Of a stretch of DNA of 64,000 bases, positions 1-64,000 are shown in pieces. The stretch spans positions 1-64,000 of the forward strand of contig JALHRQ010000001.1 in assembly GCA_022841375.1 (NCBI GenBank), read 5' to 3'. The notes under the pieces were generated by a model, which searched no databases, was not told the origin of the DNA, and saw only the letters and a program-made list of their open reading frames with translations. Made by a program: the position numbers and the translations under genes. Each line of letters begins with the position of its first letter. The first letter of the stretch is position 1. The stretch is from Burkholderiales bacterium (GTDB taxonomy: Bacteria; Pseudomonadota; Gammaproteobacteria; Burkholderiales; SG8-41).

Positions 1-5
1 ATTTG

Positions 6-81
6 TGGCGTCCCCACGGGGATTCGAACCCCGGTTACCGCCGTGAAAGGGCGATGTCCTAGGCCTCTAGACGATAGGGAC
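6..81 (-). tRNA. tRNA-Glu (anticodon TTC)
   Basis: Read on the minus strand this is a complete 76-nt cloverleaf: acceptor GTCCCTA pairs with TGGGGAC, the T arm contains GGTTCGAATCC, and the anticodon loop is CTTTCAC, giving TTC. The 3' GCCA is encoded in the DNA. It lies downstream of tRNA-Ala and of gltX on the same strand, so the glutamyl-tRNA synthetase and its tRNA may share a transcript. Confidence 0.97.
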
Positions 82-109
82 TGCGTCTGATTACAGCGAG
101 GTGTTCTGC

Positions 110-185
<76 letters not shown>

Positions 186-235
186 ACGAGAGCGGCGAAT
201 TATACCGATGCATCCCGGGACTGTAAACCCGGAAT

Positions 236-1639
236 TCAGCCCGGAAAGGCCTTTAATTCCAGCGCCATGCGTGCCAACGCCTGATCGCGTCCGATCAGTT
301 CGAGTGTTGCATCCACCGACGGCGTTTGCGGTTCACCGGTGACCATGATCCGCAACGGCATCGCCAGCTTGGGAAACTTCAACTGGTATTCCGCGACGAC
401 CGCTTTCATCGCCGCACTGATGCTGGCGCGGTCCCAGGTGATTTGCGCGAGCCTGCGATGCAGATCCTCCACCGCGGGTCGCACATCTGCAGTGTAATGC
501 TGCGCGCGCAATTCGGCGGAGGGCTCCAGCGCACGATAGAAATACACCGCCGCATCCGCAAGCTCTTCGATCGTGCTGACCCGCTCCTTCAGCAGCGCAA
601 CCACGCGCTGCGGCGCAGGCCCGGCCGCGACATTGCAGCCATCGCGCTCCAGAAACGGCACCATCAGCTGTGCGAGACGCGCGTCATCAGTCTCTTTGAT
701 GTACTGCTGGTTCAGCCAGCCGAGTTTCTCCGGGTCAAAACGTGCCGGTGAACGGCTGATGTGCGCCAGGTCAAACCATTCGACCAGCTGTTGCATCGAG
801 AATTTCTCTTCATCGCCATGCGACCAGCCGAGGCGCGCGAGGTAATTGTTGAGCGCTTCAGGCAGATAACCGTCCTCGTGATACTGCATCACGCTGACCG
901 CACCGTGGCGTTTCGACAGCCGCTCGCCGTCAGCACCGAGGATCATCGGCAGATGCGCGAACAGCGGCAGCTTCGCCCCCAGCGCGCGGTAGATGTTGAT
1001 CTGCCGCGGCGTGTTGTTGACATGATCATCGCCGCGCACGACATGGGTGATGTCCATGTCGATATCATCGATCACCACGCCGAAGTTGTAGGTCGGAATG
1101 CCGTCGGCGCGCATGATCACCAGATCATCAAGTTCTGCGTTGGCTACGGTGATCGGTCCCTTGACCAGATCATTGAACGTCACCTCACCGGTATCCGGCG
1201 TGCGGAAGCGGATCACGGGTTGAGCCCCTGCGGGCGGCGTCAGCCCCAGGCGTTTTGCATTCTCCGGCCGCCAGCGACCGTCGTAACGCGGCTTGTCGCC
1301 GCGCGCGCGCTGCGCTTCGCGCAAGGCATCGATCTCTTCGCGTGTGGCGTAACAGTGATAGGCATGGCCGTCGCGCAGCAACTGCTCCACGGCGGCCTGG
1401 TAACGGTCCAGGCGCTGCATCTGGAAATACGGGCCTTCGTAGTCCAGTCCCAGCCAATTCATGCCGTCGAGAATGGCCTGCACCGAGACATCGGTCGAAC
1501 GCTCGCGATCGGTATCCTCGACGCGCAGGATGAAAGTGCCGCCATGCTGCCTGGCGTAAGCCCAGCAGAACAGCGCGGTGCGCGCGCCGCCGATATGCAG
1601 ATAACCGGTCGGGCTGGGAGCGAAACGGGTTCTAACCAT
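236..1639 (-). CDS. gltX: Glutamyl-tRNA synthetase
   Basis: Charges tRNA-Glu with glutamate in the cytoplasm (class I aminoacyl-tRNA synthetase). The 467-residue product has the family's normal length. Residues 8-20 carry the HIGH-type signature ([14 protein letters not shown], with HIGG at 15-18), and LSKRHGA at about 240 is the KMSKS-equivalent loop. The Rossmann catalytic core is followed by the C-terminal anticodon-binding region. The ATG at 1639 sits directly before the [11 protein letters not shown] start that is usual for the family. tRNA-Ala and its own tRNA-Glu follow downstream on the same strand with no terminator that I can see. I cannot tell from sequence alone whether it is strictly discriminating (Glu only), but the presence of tRNA-Glu(TTC) fits the normal role. 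Confidence 0.98.
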
Positions 1640-9448: not shown

Positions 9449-11472
9449 TCCTGTTTGCAGAGATGGCAGCGCGCCACATGGGTCGCGCTGAGACGCTGGG
9501 CATCGGGATAAACGGATGCGCAGTGCGTCACCGCCACAGCGCAGCGCGGATGGAAATGGCAGCCTGACGGGGGATTCACCGGTGACGGCAGATCACCCGC
9601 CAGGCGCAGCACCGGCCTGGCAGCCTGCGGATCGGCAGCCGGCACTGCCGCCAGTAACGACTGGGTATAAGGATGGCGCGGCGCACGCAGCACGTCATCG
9701 ACCGACCCCTGCTCGACAATACGCCCCAGGTACATCACCGCCACCTCATCGGCCATGTAATCGATGACCGACATGTTGTGGCTGATGAACAGATAAGCCA
9801 GCCCCTTCTCGCGCTGCAGGCGTTTCAGCAGATTGAGGATTTGCGCCTGAACGGATACGTCAAGCGCACTGGTCGGCTCATCACAGACAATCAGTTGCGG
9901 CTCCACCGACAACGCGCGGGCGATGGCAATGCGCTGGCGCTGGCCGCCGGAAAACTCATGGGGATAACGACCTTTGATATCAGGCGACAGCCCGACCTCG
10001 GTCAGCAGAGCATCAATGCGCTGCTGACGGTCTGCAGCACCGGCGCCCACACCCAGCGCCAGCAAACCTTCTTCCAGTGCATCGCCAATGCGCACCCGCG
10101 GATTCAGAGAGGCGTACGGATCCTGGAAAATGATCTGTACATCGCGTCGCCGCGCCCGCAGGGCCTTGCGGTCAAGCGCCAGAAAATCTGCGCCGCCCAG
10201 CAGCACCTGACCGCCTGTGGGGGCCACCAGACGCAGCAGGCCCTTGCCCACTGTGGTCTTGCCGCAACCTGATTCACCGACCAGACCCAACGTCCGTCCC
10301 GGAAAGATGTCGAGCGTGACGCCGTCCACCGCACGCACATGACCGGATACACGCTGCAGCAGTCCCTTGCGGATCGGAAAATAAACCTGCAGGTCTTTCA
10401 CCTGCAGCAAAGCACCGCTGCCCTCGTCCTGCGCGCGCCGCGCCGCGATCTGCGCACCCTGGTCGGCAGTTGATTCTGCTCCGGGCGCCGTTTGCGCAGC
10501 CACCTCCGCATACAAATGACATCGGGCTTCGTGTTCATCGCCCACTACGTGCCACGCCGGCAATGTGCCTGCACAATGCGGCAGCACACGATCGCAACGC
10601 TCGGCAAACCGGCAGCCGGTGAACAGCCGGTGCAGCGGCGGCACCGCGCCGGGTATCGCCGCCAGCATGCGGTTGCGGCCGGCACGCTCCGGCAGCGAGT
10701 CAAACAGCTTGCGGGAATACGGATGTGCCGGCCCCTTGAAAAAAGTCTGCACCGGGCCGGTTTCGATGATCTCGCCGGCGTACATCACCGCCACCTGCTG
10801 CGCCATCTGCGCGACCACACCCAGGTCATGGGTGATCAGCAGCATCGCCATGCCGTGCGAGCGCTGCAGGTCGCGCAGCAGTTCCAGCACCTGTGCCTGC
10901 ACCGTGACGTCAAGCGCGGTGGTCGGTTCGTCGGCAATCAGCAGCGCCGGATCACAGGCCAAGGCCATCGCGATCATCACCCGCTGTTTCATGCCGCCGG
11001 AGAGCTGGAAGGGATATTCGTTTACGCGCCGTGCCGCATCGGGCATGCGCACGGCATCCAGCAGTTCGATGACCCGCGCGTCGACCGCGGCCCCGCTCAG
11101 CGCGGTATGCCGGCTTACTGATTCGGCAATCTGCGCGCCGATGGTCATCACCGGATTCAAAGACAGCCCGGGTTCCTGAAAAATCATCGCCACCCGGCGG
11201 CCGCGCACATCGCGCATCTGCGACTCCGGCAGCACCAGCAGGTTCTGCCCGTCGAGTTCCACGACACCGCCGGTGATCGTCGCCGCATCCGGCAGCAGGC
11301 GCATCAGCGACAGCGCCGTCATCGACTTGCCGCAGCCCGACTCGCCGACCAGCGCAAAGGTTTCGCCCGCAGCGATATCGAACGAAACGCCGTCGACCGC
11401 GCGCACCGGCGGGCCGTCGCCGTGGATCTGCGTTCGCAGATCGCGCACCCTCAGCAGCGGTTTTGTGCTCAT
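9445..11472 (-). CDS. Oligopeptide-type ABC transporter, fused double ATPase (YejF-like)
   Basis: Energises the importer encoded by the three upstream genes. The 675-residue protein is a tandem fusion of two DppD/OppF-type ATPases. The first has [12 protein letters not shown] (Walker A, about residue 39), [15 protein letters not shown] (signature) and [12 protein letters not shown] (Walker B). The second has [26 protein letters not shown] and [12 protein letters not shown]. Each half ends in the oligopeptide-ABC C-terminal motif with cysteines ([28 protein letters not shown]), which in relatives can carry an Fe-S cluster. YejF is about 530 residues, so the linker between halves is longer here. 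Its start overlaps the permease stop by 4 bases, and its stop overlaps that of mltD. Likely substrates are peptides, but this is inferred. Confidence 0.93.
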
Positions 11473-12896
11473 GCCGCGGCTCCTGCGCGTACCAGCCGGG
11501 GATCGAAGGCGTCACGCACGGCATCGGCAAAAATATTGGCCGCCAGCACCAGCGCCAGCATGAACACAAAGGCCGCCGCCAGCGACCACCACACCATCGG
11601 CTCGCGCGCCATTTCCAGTCGCGCGCTGTTGATCATCGTGCCGAAGCTGATCATCGACGGGTCGACGCCGACGCCGACATAGGACAGCACCGCTTCCGCC
11701 AGCACCAGGCCGCTGAAATCCATCACCAGCGCAATCATCACGATATGCATCACATTGGGCATCACATGGCGCATCATTACGCGCCAGTGCGACACGCCGA
11801 AGGCATGCGCCGCCTGGATATATTCGAGCTCGCGCAATTTCAGCGTCTCGCCGCGCAGCAACCGGCACAACCCCGTCCAGCTGGTGACGCCGAGAATCAC
11901 GCACAGTGCAATCAGCCGCACGTCGGCGCGAATCTCGGTGGTCGGGAACAGCGCCGCATGATTTTCGATATAAACCTGCATCATCAGCACTGCAGCCGCA
12001 ATCAGCAGCACCCCGGGGATCGAGGACAACGTCGTGTAGAGGTACTGGATCATGTCGTCCACCCTGCCTTTGAAATAACCCGCCATCACGCCCAGCACCA
12101 GCGCAAAAGGCAACATCACCAGCGTCGCCAGCGTGCCGATCACCATGCCGGTGCGGATGCTCTTCAGCGCCTGGTACAACACGTCCTGCCCGACCTTGTC
12201 GGTGCCGAACACATGGTAATGCGGGGCAAGCGCTACTACCGGGCCCGCGATCACCGCCAGAACGGCCAACGCACCCAACGCCGCCCTCCAGGGCACCGCC
12301 GTGCGGCCGCGCCAGATATCGTTCCAGGCCGCATCGATGCCGATACCGGAACGCTGTGCCACCGCAGCGCCCAGTGCCACAGCAGCGGTAAACCACAGCA
12401 GCAGGGCCACCGCCAAACCACGGAATCCGCGCAACGCGATGTCCCCCGCCCGGTCCGCCGCCGGATCTTTCAGATGCGCGCCGCCATGACGCAGACGCGG
12501 AAACTCGCGCACCTCGCGGCCATCGGGCAATTGCAGCGTTTCCTTGGCATACAGATGTGTCGCCAGCGGCGCCGAATAGGTTTTTTCGCGTTTGACGCGC
12601 AGCGGTTCCAGCACGCGGTCAAGCAGGCTGCGCACCTCAGTGGCGTACGCGAGCTTGCCGTCCTGCGGCGGCAGCAACGGCCGGTAATGCACCGAGTCGA
12701 GCAGGCCGGCCAGCACAAAGGTGGCGAGAATTACCGCCGCGGCAATGCCGCTGGCGCTGCGACTGACCCGCGACCAGGGCGCGCGCAGATGCGGCCGGGC
12801 ACTGGCATAGGCGGCATAACCTGCAATGGCCGCGACCAGCAGCCAGACCAGCGCATCGGTCCACAACAGCTCGAAGCGGAACGGAAACAACGTCAT
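11469..12896 (-). CDS. ABC transporter permease (YejE/DppC-like) with N-terminal extension
   Basis: Inner-membrane permease of the oligopeptide-type importer. The C-terminal 300 residues carry the usual BPD-transport domain. The EAA-type loop is near RELEYIQAAHAFGVSHWRVM, preceded by GTDKVGQDVLYQALKSIRTG, the DppC-type hallmark. At 475 residues it is about 130 longer than YejE (341). The extra N-terminal part contains two hydrophobic segments (about residues 10-28 and 47-66) and a hydrophilic loop with PDGREVREFPRLRHGGAHL. Similar insertions occur in some permeases of this group, so this may be a subfamily trait. It overlaps both neighbours by 4 bases (ATGA), consistent with one co-translated operon. 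Confidence 0.9.
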   Translation of the reverse strand: MTLFPFRFELLWTDALVWLLVAAIAGYAAYASARPHLRAPWSRVSRSASGIAAAVILATFVLAGLLDSVHYRPLLPPQDGKLAYATEVRSLLDRVLEPLRVKREKTYSAPLATHLYAKETLQLPDGREVREFPRLRHGGAHLKDPAADRAGDIALRGFRGLAVALLLWFTAAVALGAAVAQRSGIGIDAAWNDIWRGRTAVPWRAALGALAVLAVIAGPVVALAPHYHVFGTDKVGQDVLYQALKSIRTGMVIGTLATLVMLPFALVLGVMAGYFKGRVDDMIQYLYTTLSSIPGVLLIAAAVLMMQVYIENHAALFPTTEIRADVRLIALCVILGVTSWTGLCRLLRGETLKLRELEYIQAAHAFGVSHWRVMMRHVMPNVMHIVMIALVMDFSGLVLAEAVLSYVGVGVDPSMISFGTMINSARLEMAREPMVWWSLAAAFVFMLALVLAANIFADAVRDAFDPRLVRAGAAA

Positions 12897-13870
12897 GAGA
12901 AACGCACCCGCGGATCAACCAGCGTATAGGACAGGTCGGTCAGGATCAGGCCGATCACGTAGAGCACGGAACCGAGGAACACCATCACCCGCACAATCGC
13001 AAAATCCTGCTGACCGATGGCGTCGATGGTGTAACTGCCCAGCCCCGGAATGCCGAAAAAGGATTCGGTGATCAGTGCACCCATGAACAGCAGCGGAATC
13101 ACCACCACCACGCCGGTGAGTATCGGGATCATCGCGTTCTGCAGCACATGACGGAACAGCACGCGTGCCTCCGACAGGCCCTTGGCGCGCGCGGTGCGCA
13201 CATAGTCCTTGTTGATCTCCTCGAGAAAAATCGTGCGATACCAGCGTGCATTGCCGCCGATGCCGCTGATCACGCCGATCAGTACCGGCAGCGCGAGGAA
13301 CTTGATCGCATCGAAGCCGCCGTTGTAGCCGGAGATCGGCACCAGGTTCCACAGTTTGCCGAAGATGAACTGGCCGCCGATGATGTAGAACAGCGTCGAT
13401 ATCGACATCATCAGCACGCACAGCACCACACCCCAGAAGTCGAGCACGGTGGCCCGGAAAAAGGCCATCAGCAGCGCGAATGAGATGTAGACCAGCAATC
13501 CGATCAGAAAAGCCGGCAGTTGCACGGCAAGGCTGGGCCACATTCGGGTGCTGATGTCATAACCAATGTTGCGTCCCTGGTCCGACTCGCCGAACTGGAA
13601 CGCAAACAGCTTCACCGACTTGTCGTAAAACACGGTCTCGGTAACACGCTCAAAGCCTGATACTTTATCGTTTAAAAACAATGGCTTATGATATCCCCGT
13701 TCAAGCTTCCATTTTTCCACCGCTTCGGGGGTGACGCGCTTGGCGCCAAGCTGCGCGCGCGCCATGTCATCCGGCGTGTTGACGAAAAAAAACAGCGCAA
13801 ACGTCAGCACATTGACGCCGATCAGCACGAACACGCCGTAGATCAGGCGTCGGAGTATGTATCCGCTCAT
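12893..13870 (-). CDS. ABC transporter permease (YejB/DppB-like)
   Basis: The first permease of the importer. From the ATG at 13870 the protein is 325 residues and begins MSGYILRRLIYGVFVLIGVN, the standard start of DppB-type permeases (one membrane span, then a periplasmic region, then the BPD domain). ARAKGLSEARVLFRHVLQNA is the EAA loop that docks on the ATPase. The frame stays open for 41 codons further upstream, but those codons lie inside the receptor gene and the ATG at 13870 makes an ATGA overlap with that gene's stop, so I use it. Length and topology are normal for YejB. Confidence 0.93.
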   Translation of the reverse strand: MSGYILRRLIYGVFVLIGVNVLTFALFFFVNTPDDMARAQLGAKRVTPEAVEKWKLERGYHKPLFLNDKVSGFERVTETVFYDKSVKLFAFQFGESDQGRNIGYDISTRMWPSLAVQLPAFLIGLLVYISFALLMAFFRATVLDFWGVVLCVLMMSISTLFYIIGGQFIFGKLWNLVPISGYNGGFDAIKFLALPVLIGVISGIGGNARWYRTIFLEEINKDYVRTARAKGLSEARVLFRHVLQNAMIPILTGVVVVIPLLFMGALITESFFGIPGLGSYTIDAIGQQDFAIVRVMVFLGSVLYVIGLILTDLSYTLVDPRVRFS

Positions 13871-16080
13871 GCACGCTCCCCGGCCACGGCGGTACGCCGC
13901 TCCCGCCGGCGGTATGCGGACACGGCCGGCCACGCACCCAACCCCAGCACAACGGCGACCAGCGCCAACGGCCATAGCACCGGTGAGTTCCATGCGCGAC
14001 GCTGTTGCGCGCGCAATGCCGGCTCCAGACGCTGATATTTGAGACTGTTGTTGGCAATCTGGTTCGGCTTGCGGTTATGCACCCAGCCGTGATGCAGCGT
14101 GTAGTCCTTGGGGAAAAAACTCCACACCCAGGGCGCGTCATGACGCAGCAGCGCGATCATGCGGTCGATGATCGCCTGCCGTTCGGTGCCGTTGGGCATG
14201 TGTTTCATGCGCTCGAACAGGTGATCGAATTCGGGATTGCTGTAGTTCGACGCGTTTTCGCCCTGCGTCTTCGCGCGCGACTGCGGGCCGTGAAACAGGA
14301 ACAGGAAGTTTTCGGGGTCGGGATAGTCGGCGTTCCAACCCATGAAAAACAACTGCGCAGTGCCGCGGCGCAATTTGTCCTGCAAACGATTAAAGTCCGT
14401 GGCGCGAATCACCAGCTGGATGCCCAGCCGGGCGAACTGGTTGATATACCAGTCGAGTCGCGCCTTGCTATCCGCGCCGGTGGACGTCGTATCCAGATGC
14501 AACAGCAGCGGCTGGCCGCTTTTGGCATCGCGGCCATTCGGATACCCGGCTTCGGCGAGGAGCTGTTTGGCCTGGGCCAGGGTTTTGCGCTGCGCCTCAC
14601 CGTTGCGCCATTCATAAACATAGGGATTGATGCCCGCAGCATCGGCATCGCGATATCCGAATATGCCCGGCGGCACCGGCCCGTGCGAGGGCACACCGCG
14701 GCCATTGCGGAATATCGAAATAAACTCCTCCTGGTCGATGACCATCGATACCGCCAGCCTGAGCTTGCGCGCCTTTTCGCGCATCTGCTCGTCACCCTGG
14801 CCGCCGACCAGCGGATCCAGCATGTTGAAACCCAGATAAAACACGCTGGTCGCCAGCGAGGTCTGCAGGCTGATGCCACGCTTTACCATGTCCTCCGACA
14901 GCGTGACATCGCCCTGCCCCGAAAACTGCACCGCCTGGTCAAAAGTATCGGACGCGATGCCCGATGCGTCGTAATACCCCTGGAGGAACTTGTTCCAGTA
15001 CGGAATCTGCTCCTTCTCCAGGCTGAACACTACACGGTCGATGAACGGCAGCGGCTTGCCGGCATCCTGCAGCAGGCCGCGTCCGGCATCGCCCGGTTCA
15101 CCTTCGGCAGGATAGGTTTCTCCGCGGTAATTCGGGTTGCGCTCCAGCACCATCTGCCGGTTCGGATTGTTGACCGTCAACATGTACGGCCCTGAACCGA
15201 TCGGATACCAGTCGAGCGTAATGTTCTTCTGCGCCAGCCCGGGCTGGCCATAAAAACGATCCGCTTCTGGCGGCACCGGCGCGAAAAACGGCATCGCCAG
15301 CCAGTAGGCAAACTGCGGATACTTGCCGCGCACGCGCACCGCGTAAGTATGGCGGTCGATCACCCGGACACCGGACAAGGCATGCGGCTCCAGGTCGATG
15401 AACGCGTGTTCGGGCAAACCGGCTGCGGCCTTGCCCAGTTCCCCTGCAAGTTCTTTCAAACCCACCACATAGTCGGTCATCAATTGCAGTATCGGCGAAT
15501 GCAGGCGCGGGTGCGCCAGACGTTTGATCTGGTGCACATAGTCGGCAGCGACCAGTTCGCGGGTACCGGTATGTTTGAAGTCGCCCAGCGTGTCGATACC
15601 GCGCAGATCGGTTGCGGTCAGCGTCTGATACCGCGCTTTGCCCGTTTCATCCACGGCCAGCGCCGGATGCGGCTGATACAGCACGCCCTTCTTCACCGCA
15701 ATCACGTATTCGCTGAACACCACGCGCTCTGCGGGTGCGTTGTCCGGGAGCTTGCGGCCAGCGGCGTCGAGATAAACCGGTTTGGGCACTACTTCTGCGC
15801 CGAACGGAATCAATTCATAGGGCCGCTTAAGATAGTGATACTGCAGCGGCGGTTGATAAATGTTGGCGATGAACGCAAATTCGTTCTCGGCATACGACTG
15901 TACCGGATCGAGATGTTTGGGACGTTCGGAAAAGGAGGTGTAGAGCGTATTCGAACCCGCCTCCGCTGCCGGATAGGGGTCATTCCAGGGTGATCCGCTG
16001 CAGCCCGCGACTATGGTGATTACTAAAAGTGGAGCGAGCAGCGGGGCAATCAGCGGCAGACGGTAACGAAGCGAAGTCAT
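13867..16080 (-). CDS. ABC transporter substrate-binding lipoprotein (SBP_bac_5) with C-terminal membrane span
   Basis: Extracytoplasmic receptor of the importer, 737 residues. The signal ends in a lipobox (LLVITIVAGC), so the mature protein starts with a lipidated Cys near residue 27. The SBP_bac_5 fold then runs through DWYPIGSGPYMLTVNNPNRQ, FLGFNMLDP and AQLFFMGWNADYPDPENF, which match the oligopeptide-receptor family (YejA-like relatives are about 600 residues). It then adds a hydrophobic stretch SPVLWPLALVAVVLGLGAW about 35 residues from the end, followed by RRRERR. This looks like a transmembrane segment with a positive cytoplasmic tail, which is unusual for a periplasmic receptor. It is the promoter-proximal gene of the operon and is divergent from fabI. 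Confidence 0.88.
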   Translation of the reverse strand: MTSLRYRLPLIAPLLAPLLVITIVAGCSGSPWNDPYPAAEAGSNTLYTSFSERPKHLDPVQSYAENEFAFIANIYQPPLQYHYLKRPYELIPFGAEVVPKPVYLDAAGRKLPDNAPAERVVFSEYVIAVKKGVLYQPHPALAVDETGKARYQTLTATDLRGIDTLGDFKHTGTRELVAADYVHQIKRLAHPRLHSPILQLMTDYVVGLKELAGELGKAAAGLPEHAFIDLEPHALSGVRVIDRHTYAVRVRGKYPQFAYWLAMPFFAPVPPEADRFYGQPGLAQKNITLDWYPIGSGPYMLTVNNPNRQMVLERNPNYRGETYPAEGEPGDAGRGLLQDAGKPLPFIDRVVFSLEKEQIPYWNKFLQGYYDASGIASDTFDQAVQFSGQGDVTLSEDMVKRGISLQTSLATSVFYLGFNMLDPLVGGQGDEQMREKARKLRLAVSMVIDQEEFISIFRNGRGVPSHGPVPPGIFGYRDADAAGINPYVYEWRNGEAQRKTLAQAKQLLAEAGYPNGRDAKSGQPLLLHLDTTSTGADSKARLDWYINQFARLGIQLVIRATDFNRLQDKLRRGTAQLFFMGWNADYPDPENFLFLFHGPQSRAKTQGENASNYSNPEFDHLFERMKHMPNGTERQAIIDRMIALLRHDAPWVWSFFPKDYTLHHGWVHNRKPNQIANNSLKYQRLEPALRAQQRRAWNSPVLWPLALVAVVLGLGAWPAVSAYRRRERRTAVAGERA

Positions 16081-61156: not shown

Positions 61157-64000
61157 ATGACTGCAACCACGACGCTGGTCACAGCGGTTTTCGAGCTGGG
61201 ACGCGCATCGCTCGCGCCCCCTTTCCACCGCGATCCCGATCATTACCGCAGGCACCTGCCGGCAGTGCTGGCCATCGACCTGCCGATGGTCATTTACACC
61301 GACACGGCGCACGAAGCGCTGGTACGCAGCCTGCGCGGCGACAAACCGACGCGGGTGCAGCTGCTGGATCCCGCCCGGCTTGCCGAACATGCGCTGTATC
61401 AGCCGGTGCAGCGCATCCGGCAAGATCCGGCCTGGCTGTCCCAGGCGCAGTGGCTGCCGGACAGCCCGCAGGCGGCGCTGCCCGCCTACAACCCGGTGGT
61501 GATGACCAAGCCCTTGTGGCTGTACGAACAGGCACAGCAGAACCCGTTTTCCAGCACGCATTTTTACTGGATCGATGCCGGCCTCGGCCACACGGTGTCT
61601 CCCGAACTGCTGCAGGCGGCCAGCTTCATCCGTCTTGCGCAGCAGCACCAGCGTTTCCTGCTGTTGTGTTACCCGCATGATCCGCAGCGTGAAGTGCACG
61701 GATTCGACGCCGCGGCACTGGCCCGGCTCGCCGGCGTCAAGCGCACGTGCTGGGTTGCCCGCGGCGGATTCTTCGGCGGTGCGGCGGCGTACGTCAATCA
61801 AATGGCCGCCCGCTACAGCCATCACCTCGAACAGACCCTCGCACAGGGGCTGATGGGCACCGAGGAATCCATCCTCACCCTGCAAAGTTATGCCGAGGAC
61901 GATCTCTTCGACCTGCAGTTCATCGGAGCCGACGGCCTCGTCCAGCCCTTCTTCGATCAACTCGCCCGGCAACGGCCCGGTGACACCGGCACGGCGCGCG
62001 CGCTGCTGCCCGGACTGTGCGAAACCTGGTTCGTGTCGTACAACACGCCGCTGCAGTTCGAACGCCTGCTCGATTCGATCACTGCCGCCGACCCGGCGCT
62101 GCTGCGCACCGCCCGCCGCGTGCTGATCAACAACTCCACTGACGCCGTCACCTTCGAACACTACGACGCGCTATGCGCGCGTTACGGCATCGAGCAGATC
62201 CGCGAGGGCAACCGCGGCATCAACGGCGCGCGCATCCACGCCGCCGACCTGTTCCACCGCGGCGGCGGCCACGCCATGTTCTGGTTCGAGGACGACATGC
62301 TGCTGGTCGGCGAGGACGAGTTGCCCGCCGCCTGCGAGAACGGCCTGTCTCGGCATGTGCATGAAGCCGGCGCCACTTGCCTCGCCGTGCAACAGCGCGA
62401 GTTCGCCGATTACGTGAAATTCAGCTTCAGCGAGGTGTTCGGCGCGCACCATACCCAGTGGGGCTGGATCAACCTCAATGAACAGGCGCGTACACACTAT
62501 TTCCCCGGCGCCATCGATGCCCCTCGGGCGAGCTTCAACCACATCCAGAGCCTGGCCCATGTGCCGTACGCCGTGGGCGAGGTCTATTACAGCAACTGGC
62601 CGCAGGTGGTCACCCGCCGCGGCACCCGCAAGCTGTTTTTCGACGAGCGGCGCGAACCCTGCTACGAGCAGTACTGGACCGCGCGCTCCTTCGAGCTGCT
62701 GCGCCTGGGTCACCTCAAGGCGGCGGTGCTGCTGGCCTCGCCGGTTCATCACCACCGTACCGAGGATTACGCACGGGTCGAGCGGGTCGAATACCAGCGT
62801 CTGGAAGATGCCGCCAAGCCGATCACCCCGGCCGTCGCCGCGCCGCCGGCGCCGGCCCCTGCAGCACGGCGCGACTGGCCGCAGGAACCGGGCACGATTT
62901 TCGTGTCCATCGCCAACTACCGCGACAGCGAAACCCCGCACACCATCCGCAGCCTGCTCTCCAATGCCTCCTGGCCCCGGCGCATCCGCATCGGCGTGTT
63001 TTCCCAGGTGGTGCCCGGCGACGATGACGACTGCCTGCCGCCGCAGGACCTTGCCGCCGGACAGCTGCGCGAAATCCGCTGCCATGCCAACGACAGCCTC
63101 GGCGCCTGCTGGGCGCGCAGCCGCATCCTCGAGGAACTGCTGCAGGGCGAGGAATACGTGCTGCAGATCGACAGCCACATGCGTTTCGAGCCGGGCTGGG
63201 ACGGCACGCTGCTCGACATGCTCCGCCGCTGCCCGACGCCGCAGGCAATGATCACCACCTATCCGCCGGCCTACGCGCCGCCGGCGGAACGGGGCAGCCC
63301 TGCGCTCAACCTGCTGGCCGCCGATGCCTTCAACGACATGGGCATCCTGATGGTGAAGCCGCGCGCCATCGACCCGCGCGAGCCGCTGACAGGGCCGCCG
63401 CCCTCCGCCTTCCTCAGCGCCAACCTGCTGTTCGGGCCGGCGGCGGCCTTTCGCGAAGTGCGCTATGACCCGCAGCTGTATTTCCACGGCGAGGAAATCT
63501 CGATGGCCGCGCGCTTCTGGACCCACGGCTGGGACCTCTACGCGCCGGACCGCTGCGTGATGTACCACGACTACAGCACCGACCGCGGCCGCCCGCGCCA
63601 CTGGGAGGACCGCCGCAACTGGGTGATGTTCAACATGCGCTCTTTTGCGCGGCTGCGCCACCTCTTCGGCATCGAGCACAGCCGCGACCCGGTGGTGCTG
63701 CGCGCAATCGATCAGTACGGCCTCGGCAGCGTGCGCAGCCTCGCCGACTACGAGGCCTACGCCGACGTCGACTTCAGGACCGCGCGCATCGGCAGCCGCG
63801 CCGCGGACGCGCGTTTTCCCGTTCCGCCTGCCGCACAGGCATTGCTCCGTCTGAAGCAGCAGCGCGCGCGCTACCTCGAGCGTCTGCCCGGCGAGGATAC
63901 CTACACGCCGGTACGCGAAACGCGCTGCGGCGAGGCGTCGACGCTGGCCGCCACCGACAAGCTGCGTCCGGCGCTGGCGAACTGGTTGCGCGAACACGGC
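61157..64000 (+). CDS. Multi-domain glycosyltransferase (HtrL-like, GT2-like and GlcNAc-transferase domains), 3' end outside the window
   Basis: An uninterrupted frame of 948 codons from the ATG at 61157 runs past the window edge. Residues 1 to about 270 resemble HtrL/YibB proteins: TLVTAVFELGR, VVMTKPLWLYEQ and FYWIDAGLGHT around residue 139. Residues 288-545 look like a GT-A/GT2 domain: ETWFVSYNTPLQFERLLDSI, VLINNSTD, NRGINGARIHAADLF and an acidic FEDDM (377-381) like a metal-binding DXD motif. After an Ala/Pro-rich linker, residues 579 onward match the GlcNAc-transferase (Skp1-type) family: TIFVSIANYRDSETPHTIRS, LQIDSHMRFEPGWD (D672, H674), FHGEEISMAARFWTHGWDLY. No signal peptide, so probably cytoplasmic. 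The acceptor is unknown. There is no ribosome-binding site of note at the ATG. Confidence 0.82.
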   Translation, partial: MTATTTLVTAVFELGRASLAPPFHRDPDHYRRHLPAVLAIDLPMVIYTDTAHEALVRSLRGDKPTRVQLLDPARLAEHALYQPVQRIRQDPAWLSQAQWLPDSPQAALPAYNPVVMTKPLWLYEQAQQNPFSSTHFYWIDAGLGHTVSPELLQAASFIRLAQQHQRFLLLCYPHDPQREVHGFDAAALARLAGVKRTCWVARGGFFGGAAAYVNQMAARYSHHLEQTLAQGLMGTEESILTLQSYAEDDLFDLQFIGADGLVQPFFDQLARQRPGDTGTARALLPGLCETWFVSYNTPLQFERLLDSITAADPALLRTARRVLINNSTDAVTFEHYDALCARYGIEQIREGNRGINGARIHAADLFHRGGGHAMFWFEDDMLLVGEDELPAACENGLSRHVHEAGATCLAVQQREFADYVKFSFSEVFGAHHTQWGWINLNEQARTHYFPGAIDAPRASFNHIQSLAHVPYAVGEVYYSNWPQVVTRRGTRKLFFDERREPCYEQYWTARSFELLRLGHLKAAVLLASPVHHHRTEDYARVERVEYQRLEDAAKPITPAVAAPPAPAPAARRDWPQEPGTIFVSIANYRDSETPHTIRSLLSNASWPRRIRIGVFSQVVPGDDDDCLPPQDLAAGQLREIRCHANDSLGACWARSRILEELLQGEEYVLQIDSHMRFEPGWDGTLLDMLRRCPTPQAMITTYPPAYAPPAERGSPALNLLAADAFNDMGILMVKPRAIDPREPLTGPPPSAFLSANLLFGPAAAFREVRYDPQLYFHGEEISMAARFWTHGWDLYAPDRCVMYHDYSTDRGRPRHWEDRRNWVMFNMRSFARLRHLFGIEHSRDPVVLRAIDQYGLGSVRSLADYEAYADVDFRTARIGSRAADARFPVPPAAQALLRLKQQRARYLERLPGEDTYTPVRETRCGEASTLAATDKLRPALANWLREHG

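Follow-up and report, generated by a model that had tools for sequence, protein, structure and literature searches.

What does a bacterium make with a gene that joins several glycosyltransferase domains in one chain, and on which acceptor? The question is raised by the 3' end of the window, i.e., the 64,000-nucleotide stretch of a Burkholderiales bacterium that forms the first 64 kb of the 828-kb contig JALHRQ010000001.1 (assembly GCA_022841375.1, 99% complete; hereafter genome G000, contig C1). Here a single open reading frame (ORF) of the + strand starts at the ATG in position 61157 and runs past the window end to a stop codon at G000:C1:66119-66121 (L003:1157-6118 plus the stop), encoding a fusion protein of 1654 residues, 948 codons of which are held in the window. 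Its domain order is HtrL_YibB – GT2x – GT60 – MT – GT60 – MT, where GT2x is a label for the second GT-A domain, which has no Pfam family in the window sequence, and MT stands for a methyltransferase-like domain. The fusion is probably a soluble cytoplasmic protein O-glycosyltransferase with several active sites, dedicated to the adhesin (TpsA) encoded by the adjacent gene, on whose threonine tract it would build short, putatively methylated chains before export. An earlier interpretation of the window letters alone (the sequence-only reading) had counted three domains, where six are present, and had advised inspection beyond position 64000 for further domains and acceptor genes, which brought to light two MT-like domains, a second GT60 and TpsA. 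The features within the window are the following:

61157..64000, + strand: 5' part of the fusion gene, 948 codons; the rest lies beyond the window, to G000:C1:66121
61166..61915, + strand: HtrL_YibB domain, residues 4-253; Pfam PF09612, modelled GT-A fold resembling GT6 blood-group/alpha-3-galactosyltransferases
61568-61582, + strand: WIDAG motif of the HtrL_YibB domain, with invariant Asp140
61988..62776, + strand: GT2x domain, residues 278-540; predicted GT-A fold, without a Pfam family
62285-62299, + strand: FEDDM acidic motif of GT2x, with E378, D380, and M381 invariant in a 38-sequence alignment (A2)
62888..63766, + strand: first GT60 domain, residues 578-870; Pfam PF11397, fold like that of polypeptide GalNAc-transferases (ppGalNAc-T) in the model of the L037 homologue
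63170-63178, + strand: DSH of the first GT60, position of the DxH motif
63869..64000, + strand: start of the first MT domain (from about residue 905 on); Pfam Methyltransf_12/11/25, with DAGCG at residue 954 beyond the window

The first domain matches PF09612 (residues 4-253, E 8.5e-13, 48.9 bits against a cut-off of 24.1), in agreement with the HtrL/YibB region proposed by the sequence-only reading, and does not reach the YibB equivalog TIGR02192 (59.3 bits against 264.9); by profile, it is a member of the HtrL_YibB family and not YibB itself. The proposed Skp1-type GlcNAc-transferase region is likewise confirmed by PF11397 (GT60), with E 9.6e-133 and 443 bits for the whole protein against a cut-off of 21, in four stretches corresponding to two domains that both exceed the cut-off in the genome profile scan. 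Identity between the two GT60 copies is 62%, and DSH is present in them at residues 672 and 1232; the DxH motif, in place of DxD, is given for GT27 and GT60 in the accessible part of PMC7185993. The two MT domains, 50% identical to each other, are of the class I S-adenosylmethionine methyltransferase type (Methyltransf_25, Methyltransf_12, and Methyltransf_11 above the Pfam cut-off), with the glycine-rich motif I, DAGCG, at residues 954 and 1513. No GT41 family is among the seven Pfam families listed for the fusion protein at E up to 1 and, as judged by profiles, the fusion belongs to GT60 and not to GT41. Residues ~278-545, previously described as GT2-like, have no Pfam match in the window sequence, PF00535 (GT2) included, which is matched by two of the 38 members of alignment A2 (best E 7.2e-6); what stands of that description is the GT-A-like fold. 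PHROGs gave no family for the first 566 residues at E 0.01, and no solved-structure relative of the fusion protein was detectable by sequence. Finally, the highest 19-residue mean hydropathy is 1.37, and the protein would be cytoplasmic because no strongly hydrophobic segment was found.

The predicted structures agree with the three separate GT-A folds anticipated for the stretch. The model of residues 1-566, built on alignment A2 (pLDDT 90, pTM 0.88), presents two predicted GT-A domains in residues 1-540. Domain 1 aligns with GT6 blood-group synthases (6gx1, Z 13.5, root-mean-square deviation (rmsd) 3.5 over 198 residues, model 1..269), and GT2x with B4GALNT1 (9h6k, Z 16.5, rmsd 3.2, 205 residues, model 172..544), with POMGNT1 (5ggf, Z 15.1, rmsd 3.2, 191 residues, model 278..535), GnT-I (1fo8, Z 14.4), and others also matching; 9h6k, 5ggf, and 1fo8 are GT-A enzymes. 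The top whole-length Foldseek rows for residues 1-566 are lysyl hydroxylase LH3 and collagen galactosyltransferase, which likewise contain several GT-A-type domains. The GT60-MT model was built on the L037 copy of the first module, 91% identical, with a 42-sequence alignment (pLDDT 87.7, pTM 0.76), and its structural match tables concern the GT60 domain, which fills the listed rows and leaves them uninformative on MT. In particular, ranks 1-29 are all polypeptide GalNAc-transferases of GT27 (Z 24.3-20.6), several of them in structures containing mucin peptides, and the next kind is B4GALNT1 (Z 17.5). Polypeptide GalNAc-transferases start mucin-type O-glycosylation, and GT60 is described as the pp-alphaGlcNAcT family that initiates it in protists (both PMC8724618).

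The frame itself, seen as continuous by the sequence-only reading, was verified and is not peculiar to one assembly. A search of 61 genomes (that of the window and 60 relatives) recovered the whole fusion in G000 and G015 and a copy truncated at a contig end in G009. In G015, which belongs to the same genus, the same joined frame covers query residues 2-1652 with 86% identity by search and 85% by codon alignment; this genome and L037 (JAIENU01, a 'Burkholderiales bacterium' metagenome-assembled genome) are evidently one, with the fusion copy on C155 in both. The G009 copy is 79% identical over query residues 5-663. Comparison of G000 with L037 in eight stretches gave ratios of non-synonymous to synonymous substitution rates (dN/dS) of 0.05-0.24 for the domains, 0.23 and 0.44 for two linkers, and 0.17 overall. 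Since the joined frame recurs in G015, G009 has a cut copy, and dN/dS is below 1 in all eight stretches, an assembly error is unlikely; the sequencing-error or frameshift explanation was accordingly rejected, and the signature of purifying selection indicates that the fusion gene is maintained. A related, interrupted copy occurs in Thiobacillus UBA12164 (L038) as a GT2x-GT60 frame with an overlapping MT frame; its HtrL part, recognised by eye, lies in a region with ambiguous assembly bases where the frame is broken.

The acceptor is suggested by the neighbourhood, which supports the earlier guess of a protein acceptor. Convergent to the fusion gene and just beyond its end lies a gene for a 1722-residue exoprotein of the two-partner secretion (TPS) type, TpsA, with a TPS domain and YDG repeats by Pfam and a putative extended signal peptide; it is followed by its partner TpsB (POTRA_2, ShlB by Pfam) and then by a GT4-type glycosyltransferase gene (L003:13819-15123, - strand; G000:C1:73819-75123), which may share the pathway. 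TpsA carries, 102-139 residues from its C-terminal end, a Thr/Pro tract with threonine runs of four and five between prolines. An orthologous TpsA end likewise faces the fusion gene in G015 (L006 and L037), and the TpsA orthologue of L038 carries a different version of the tract, so that the pairing is found in all three fusion loci with a readable flank. The other flank varies (by eye, an acyl-CoA dehydrogenase in G000, a ferredoxin-type reductase in G015, and different genes in G009). When the C-terminus of TpsA was searched in the 61 genomes, two matched, G000 and G015, both carrying the fusion, which is itself present in three.

A tract was defined throughout as a span of 40 residues containing no fewer than 10 Thr, 5 Pro, and 22 Thr+Ser+Pro. 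It is present in 3/3 fusion-adjacent adhesins against 0/20 other TPS exoproteins of the same genus and family (Fisher p 6e-4), the 20 controls having been hand-picked from 109 matches with long frames favoured, four from G000, and two with frames cut by the stretch end. The three TpsAs can be aligned well downstream of the tract and over part of the stretch that precedes it, while within the tract the sequence varies and the Thr content remains at 20-23 in 70 residues. A protein O-glycosyltransferase whose main acceptor is another exported protein, or whose nearby Thr tract is no more than a drifting spacer, is quite unlikely: the composition of the tract is kept between alignable flanks, and the four other TPS proteins of G000 all lack a tract, although the very existence of these four genes, and a tract near only 17 of 46 GT60-MT loci, speak for it. 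A TPS domain also lies within a 26,674-codon open frame (~80 kb) of the same-genus genome (G015:C274:86294-86971, - strand).

In the mechanism preferred here, the GT60 domains would most likely start the chain by placing an alpha-linked N-acetylhexosamine on threonines of the TpsA tract, GlcNAc being the candidate first sugar by precedent in the family. The HtrL and GT2x domains would add further sugars, and the MT domains would cap or decorate the glycan, so that the chains are probably methylated; the modified TpsA would then be exported via Sec and the TpsB pore. The sequence-only reading had imagined a processive enzyme; different, separately conserved active sites would better fit stepwise addition. 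In our opinion the fusion would work as HMW1C-like enzymes do, glycosylating an adhesin in the cytoplasm, but its chemistry would be the one that initiates mucin-type glycosylation. In the available part of PMC3012730, HMW1C of Haemophilus and Actinobacillus is likewise tied to a TPS adhesin, HMW1, as the fusion is to the adjacent TpsA/TpsB; in contrast, HMW1C is a GT41 enzyme acting N-linked on asparagine, and the window protein is a GT60 with a Thr/Pro tract in its neighbour. The protist polypeptide alpha-GlcNAc transferases (CAZy GT60; T. cruzi and Dictyostelium, PMC8724618, as accessible) share with it the Pfam family, the DxH motif, the GT27-like fold, and a Thr-rich acceptor region, which here would be that of the adjoining gene; unlike them, the window protein is bacterial, has a duplicated GT60, and contains methyltransferase domains and two more GT-A domains in the same chain. 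PgtA, the bifunctional transferase of the second and third sugars in the Skp1 pathway, is another soluble chain with several activities in a pathway started by GT60, and differs, as far as the accessible text of PMC6939170 and PMC8724618 goes, in lacking the GT60 step and in using other GT families.

A surface polysaccharide or lipooligosaccharide side chain as the product, with the adhesin adjacent by chance, would be consistent with the chondroitin polymerase and similar polysaccharide synthases that are also among the structural matches and with the HtrL_YibB members of lipooligosaccharide outer-core loci (PMC4172580); in the accessible part of that paper, such proteins of lipopolysaccharide/lipooligosaccharide loci share the family of domain 1 and are uncharacterised, and the TIGR02192 cut-off is unmet here. 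Such a role of the enzyme is nevertheless unlikely, given that the adhesin pairing stays while the other flank changes, that the GT60 fold is predicted to be closest to polypeptide transferases, and that no polysaccharide export genes were noticed in the ORF lists of ~25 kb around the gene, of which four proteins only were profiled.

Glycosylation of hydroxyproline, hinted at by the sequence-only reading and carried out on protist Skp1 by the GT60 enzyme Gnt1 (PMC6939170, PMC8724618, both as accessible), is very unlikely for the fusion even though the family is the same and the tract contains prolines. PF13640 (2OG-FeII_Oxy_3) has 0 matches in G000, other oxygenase families not having been sought, and therefore the acceptor is more likely threonine, of which the neighbour offers a tract; moreover, the partner domain in the fusion is a methyltransferase. 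Some other bacteria do have a GT60 beside or fused to an oxygenase of the 2-oxoglutarate (2OG)-Fe(II) type, a kind that includes prolyl hydroxylases. Such an oxygenase was matched by profile in 13 of 80 named loci (described below) against 0/60 control stretches, mostly beside or within the GT60 gene and 4.5 kb off in L108; of the nine of these loci put to Pfam, PF13640 was confirmed in eight and not in L083, and it was also confirmed in one viral locus. These loci are a possible bacterial branch of Skp1-type hydroxyproline glycosylation. They include a GT60-oxygenase fusion with PF13640 (L068:1132-2997) and PF13640 near, adjoining, or fused to GT60 in L075 and L088 (C-terminal parts), L082, L095, L096, L110, L108, and the viral L164.

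The wider family was examined in named genomes, where one scan using six GT60 domains as queries returned 256 relatives; of these, the 80 best were analysed as loci (46 GT60-MT, 2 fusion, 7 tandem GT60, and 25 other GT60). A tract ORF lies within 3 kb of the GT60 in 23/80 loci against 2/72 control windows (p 1.2e-5), distributed as 17/46 in GT60-MT, 2/2 in fusion, 0/7 in tandem, and 4/25 in other loci; several contigs end within repeats, which may lower the count. The controls were six-kb windows taken from at most 20 kb at the start of contig C1 in 40 of 48 genomes reached (531 kb, including 28 kb of N), of similar G+C (58% vs 60% in the two sets), and their two tracts (2/69 without the masked windows) both resemble shadow frames. 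The Pfam families found most often in 74 selected neighbour proteins were HlyD_3 (7), HlyD_D23 (6), outer-membrane efflux (4), and ABC transporter (4), with 'PT disordered repeat' in 3 and LapD in 2, unrelated families such as RtcB also reaching 3; this sample is biased, consisting of 71 of 174 candidate ORFs, shadow-like frames being dropped, plus three known exporter-like genes of L033. Since type I secretion parts are frequent among these neighbours, the wider GT60 family often stands near large secreted adhesins; unlike it, the window's GT60 is tied to a TPS adhesin.

Three records of large phages (XacN1, CM1, and RAS14) contain GT2x homologues, and in XacN1 and RAS14 an HtrL-GT2x gene, a few genes from a GT60, aligns to window protein residues 12-551 and 23-545, respectively, with 35% identity. 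Viral contigs of IMG/VR contain at least 553 GT60 relatives, 80 of which were kept; an HtrL-GT2x gene is present in 49 of 82 loci (these 80 and two phages). In the 47 whole viral GT60 records tested out of the 80, an HtrL-GT2x match was found in 43 and was nearly full length in 39, and therefore the domains probably serve one pathway. A tract ORF is found in 49/80 viral loci (40/66 after removal of near-copies); the median distance to the GT60 is 165 bases (n=49), and some tracts extend over several hundred residues. In a paired test on 20 contigs with a second stretch, it was present in 12/20 GT60 stretches against 4/20 controls (p 0.022). Three of five viral tract proteins match only PHROG families of unknown function and two match nothing; they may, as a guess, be virion proteins. 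Glycans on phage proteins are known in mycobacteriophage virion glycosylation, here by citation in PMC12619734 alone. In L170:266-4366, L229:1250-5830, and others, TPTNTPTLTQ-like repeats of hundreds of residues adjoin GT60 genes, the sole match of the L170 repeat protein being a PHROG of unknown function; in phage XacN1 (L161:3282-5579) a gene annotated as carbamoyl transferase separates those for GT60 and HtrL-GT2x and may contribute an extra decoration of the glycan.

The frequency of HtrL-GT2x in viral records could also mean that the fusion is a captured set of phage enzymes for DNA hypermodification, in line with the match of one of the 38 A2 members to TAGT (TET-associated glycosyltransferase, PF20691; E 4.8e-4), which the window sequence itself does not match, and of one viral member to a glucosyl-HMC glucosyltransferase PHROG (E 0.0018). 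Such a role is highly improbable: both matches are weak and single, the neighbourhood is that of an adhesin, and the GT60 of the fusion has a polypeptide-transferase fold and falls in the bacterial GT60-MT branch and not in the viral one. This placement comes from a quick tree of 144 GT60 domains with SH-aLRT support only and no bootstrap, in which the five GT60 domains of the fusion form one group (support 96) within the bacterial GT60-MT branch, and 30 of 32 viral copies form a separate branch (support 99) that includes the GT60 of G109; the single GT60 of L038 groups with copy 1. The simplest account of the origin is that an adhesin-type GT60-MT gene joined a virus-type HtrL-GT2x gene and that the GT60-MT part was then duplicated.

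Several points weigh against glycosylation of the TpsA tract, in addition to the outer-core occurrence of HtrL_YibB proteins mentioned above. The TPS pairing is based on three loci that are related to each other, including an interrupted copy, and G009 has a fusion copy and no match to the TpsA C-terminus, its genome being 79% complete and the contig cut. The tract criterion was fixed after the first tracts were seen. No tract was found in 57/80 named bacterial loci and 31/80 viral ones, in some because the contig ends beside the GT60, in others despite intact flanks; 11 tract bins also occur in 590 kb lying more than 3 kb from a GT60, the control windows were not length-matched (6 kb, against a mean of 4.9 kb for the near stretches), and four of the 20 viral control stretches contain a tract.

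Taken with these points, the data suggest that bacteria possess a counterpart to mucin-type glycosylation of proteins as it occurs in animals and protists, with parts common to phages. The broader proposal, to which an even chance is given, is that GT60 marks a bacterial and viral system of mucin-type O-glycosylation acting on its own adjacent Thr/Pro-repeat surface proteins (TPS adhesins, type I-secreted giant adhesins, and viral PT-repeat proteins), with HtrL-GT2x as chain extender and the window gene as the whole pathway in one chain; the GT60-oxygenase sister branch would then be a bacterial Skp1 hydroxyproline pathway. If true, the mucin-type glycosylation that animals and protists carry out on Thr/Pro-rich surface proteins would extend to bacteria and their viruses, with enzyme and acceptor genes adjacent and hence easy to test; HtrL_YibB (of unknown function in Pfam), an unnamed GT-A domain, and a viral gene pair with no known role would each gain a function; a soluble one-chain enzyme would be available for making O-glycoproteins; and there would be a bearing on the origin of the protist GT60 and Skp1 pathways. 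In the literature searched, which left most subscription papers outside, no description was found of Thr/Pro tracts being modified by a GT60 of bacteria or phages, nor of an HtrL-GT60 fusion, and PF11397 is named in one paper found, on a brown alga.

When 399 genomes of the order were drawn, G015 and G009 not among them, GT2x was found in the window's own genome and in G109 only; GT60 is above the cut-off in 10 genomes of such a draw of 399. Among plasmids, 22 records match the fusion, none over 80% of the query; the 20 matches listed cover GT60 or MT parts only, and GT2x has no match among plasmid records. In G109 a stand-alone GT2x homologue adjoins a separate GT60 gene, both lying, by eye, amid a putative type VI secretion cluster (L034:9179-11404, - strand). 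Proteins of ~1400-2450 residues, some contig-cut, with three or four tandem GT60 domains are encoded in L075, L076, L078, L085, L088, L091, and L116, whose hosts are Rickettsiales and other (alpha)proteobacteria; that of L075 adds an AhpC/TSA redoxin-like domain. Lastly, in G337 (L036:5539-5916 and 9757-14270) a GT60 gene is followed by putative HlyD and peptidase-type ABC exporter genes, recognised by eye, and a small glycine-leader peptide is encoded upstream, possibly a glycosylated bacteriocin.

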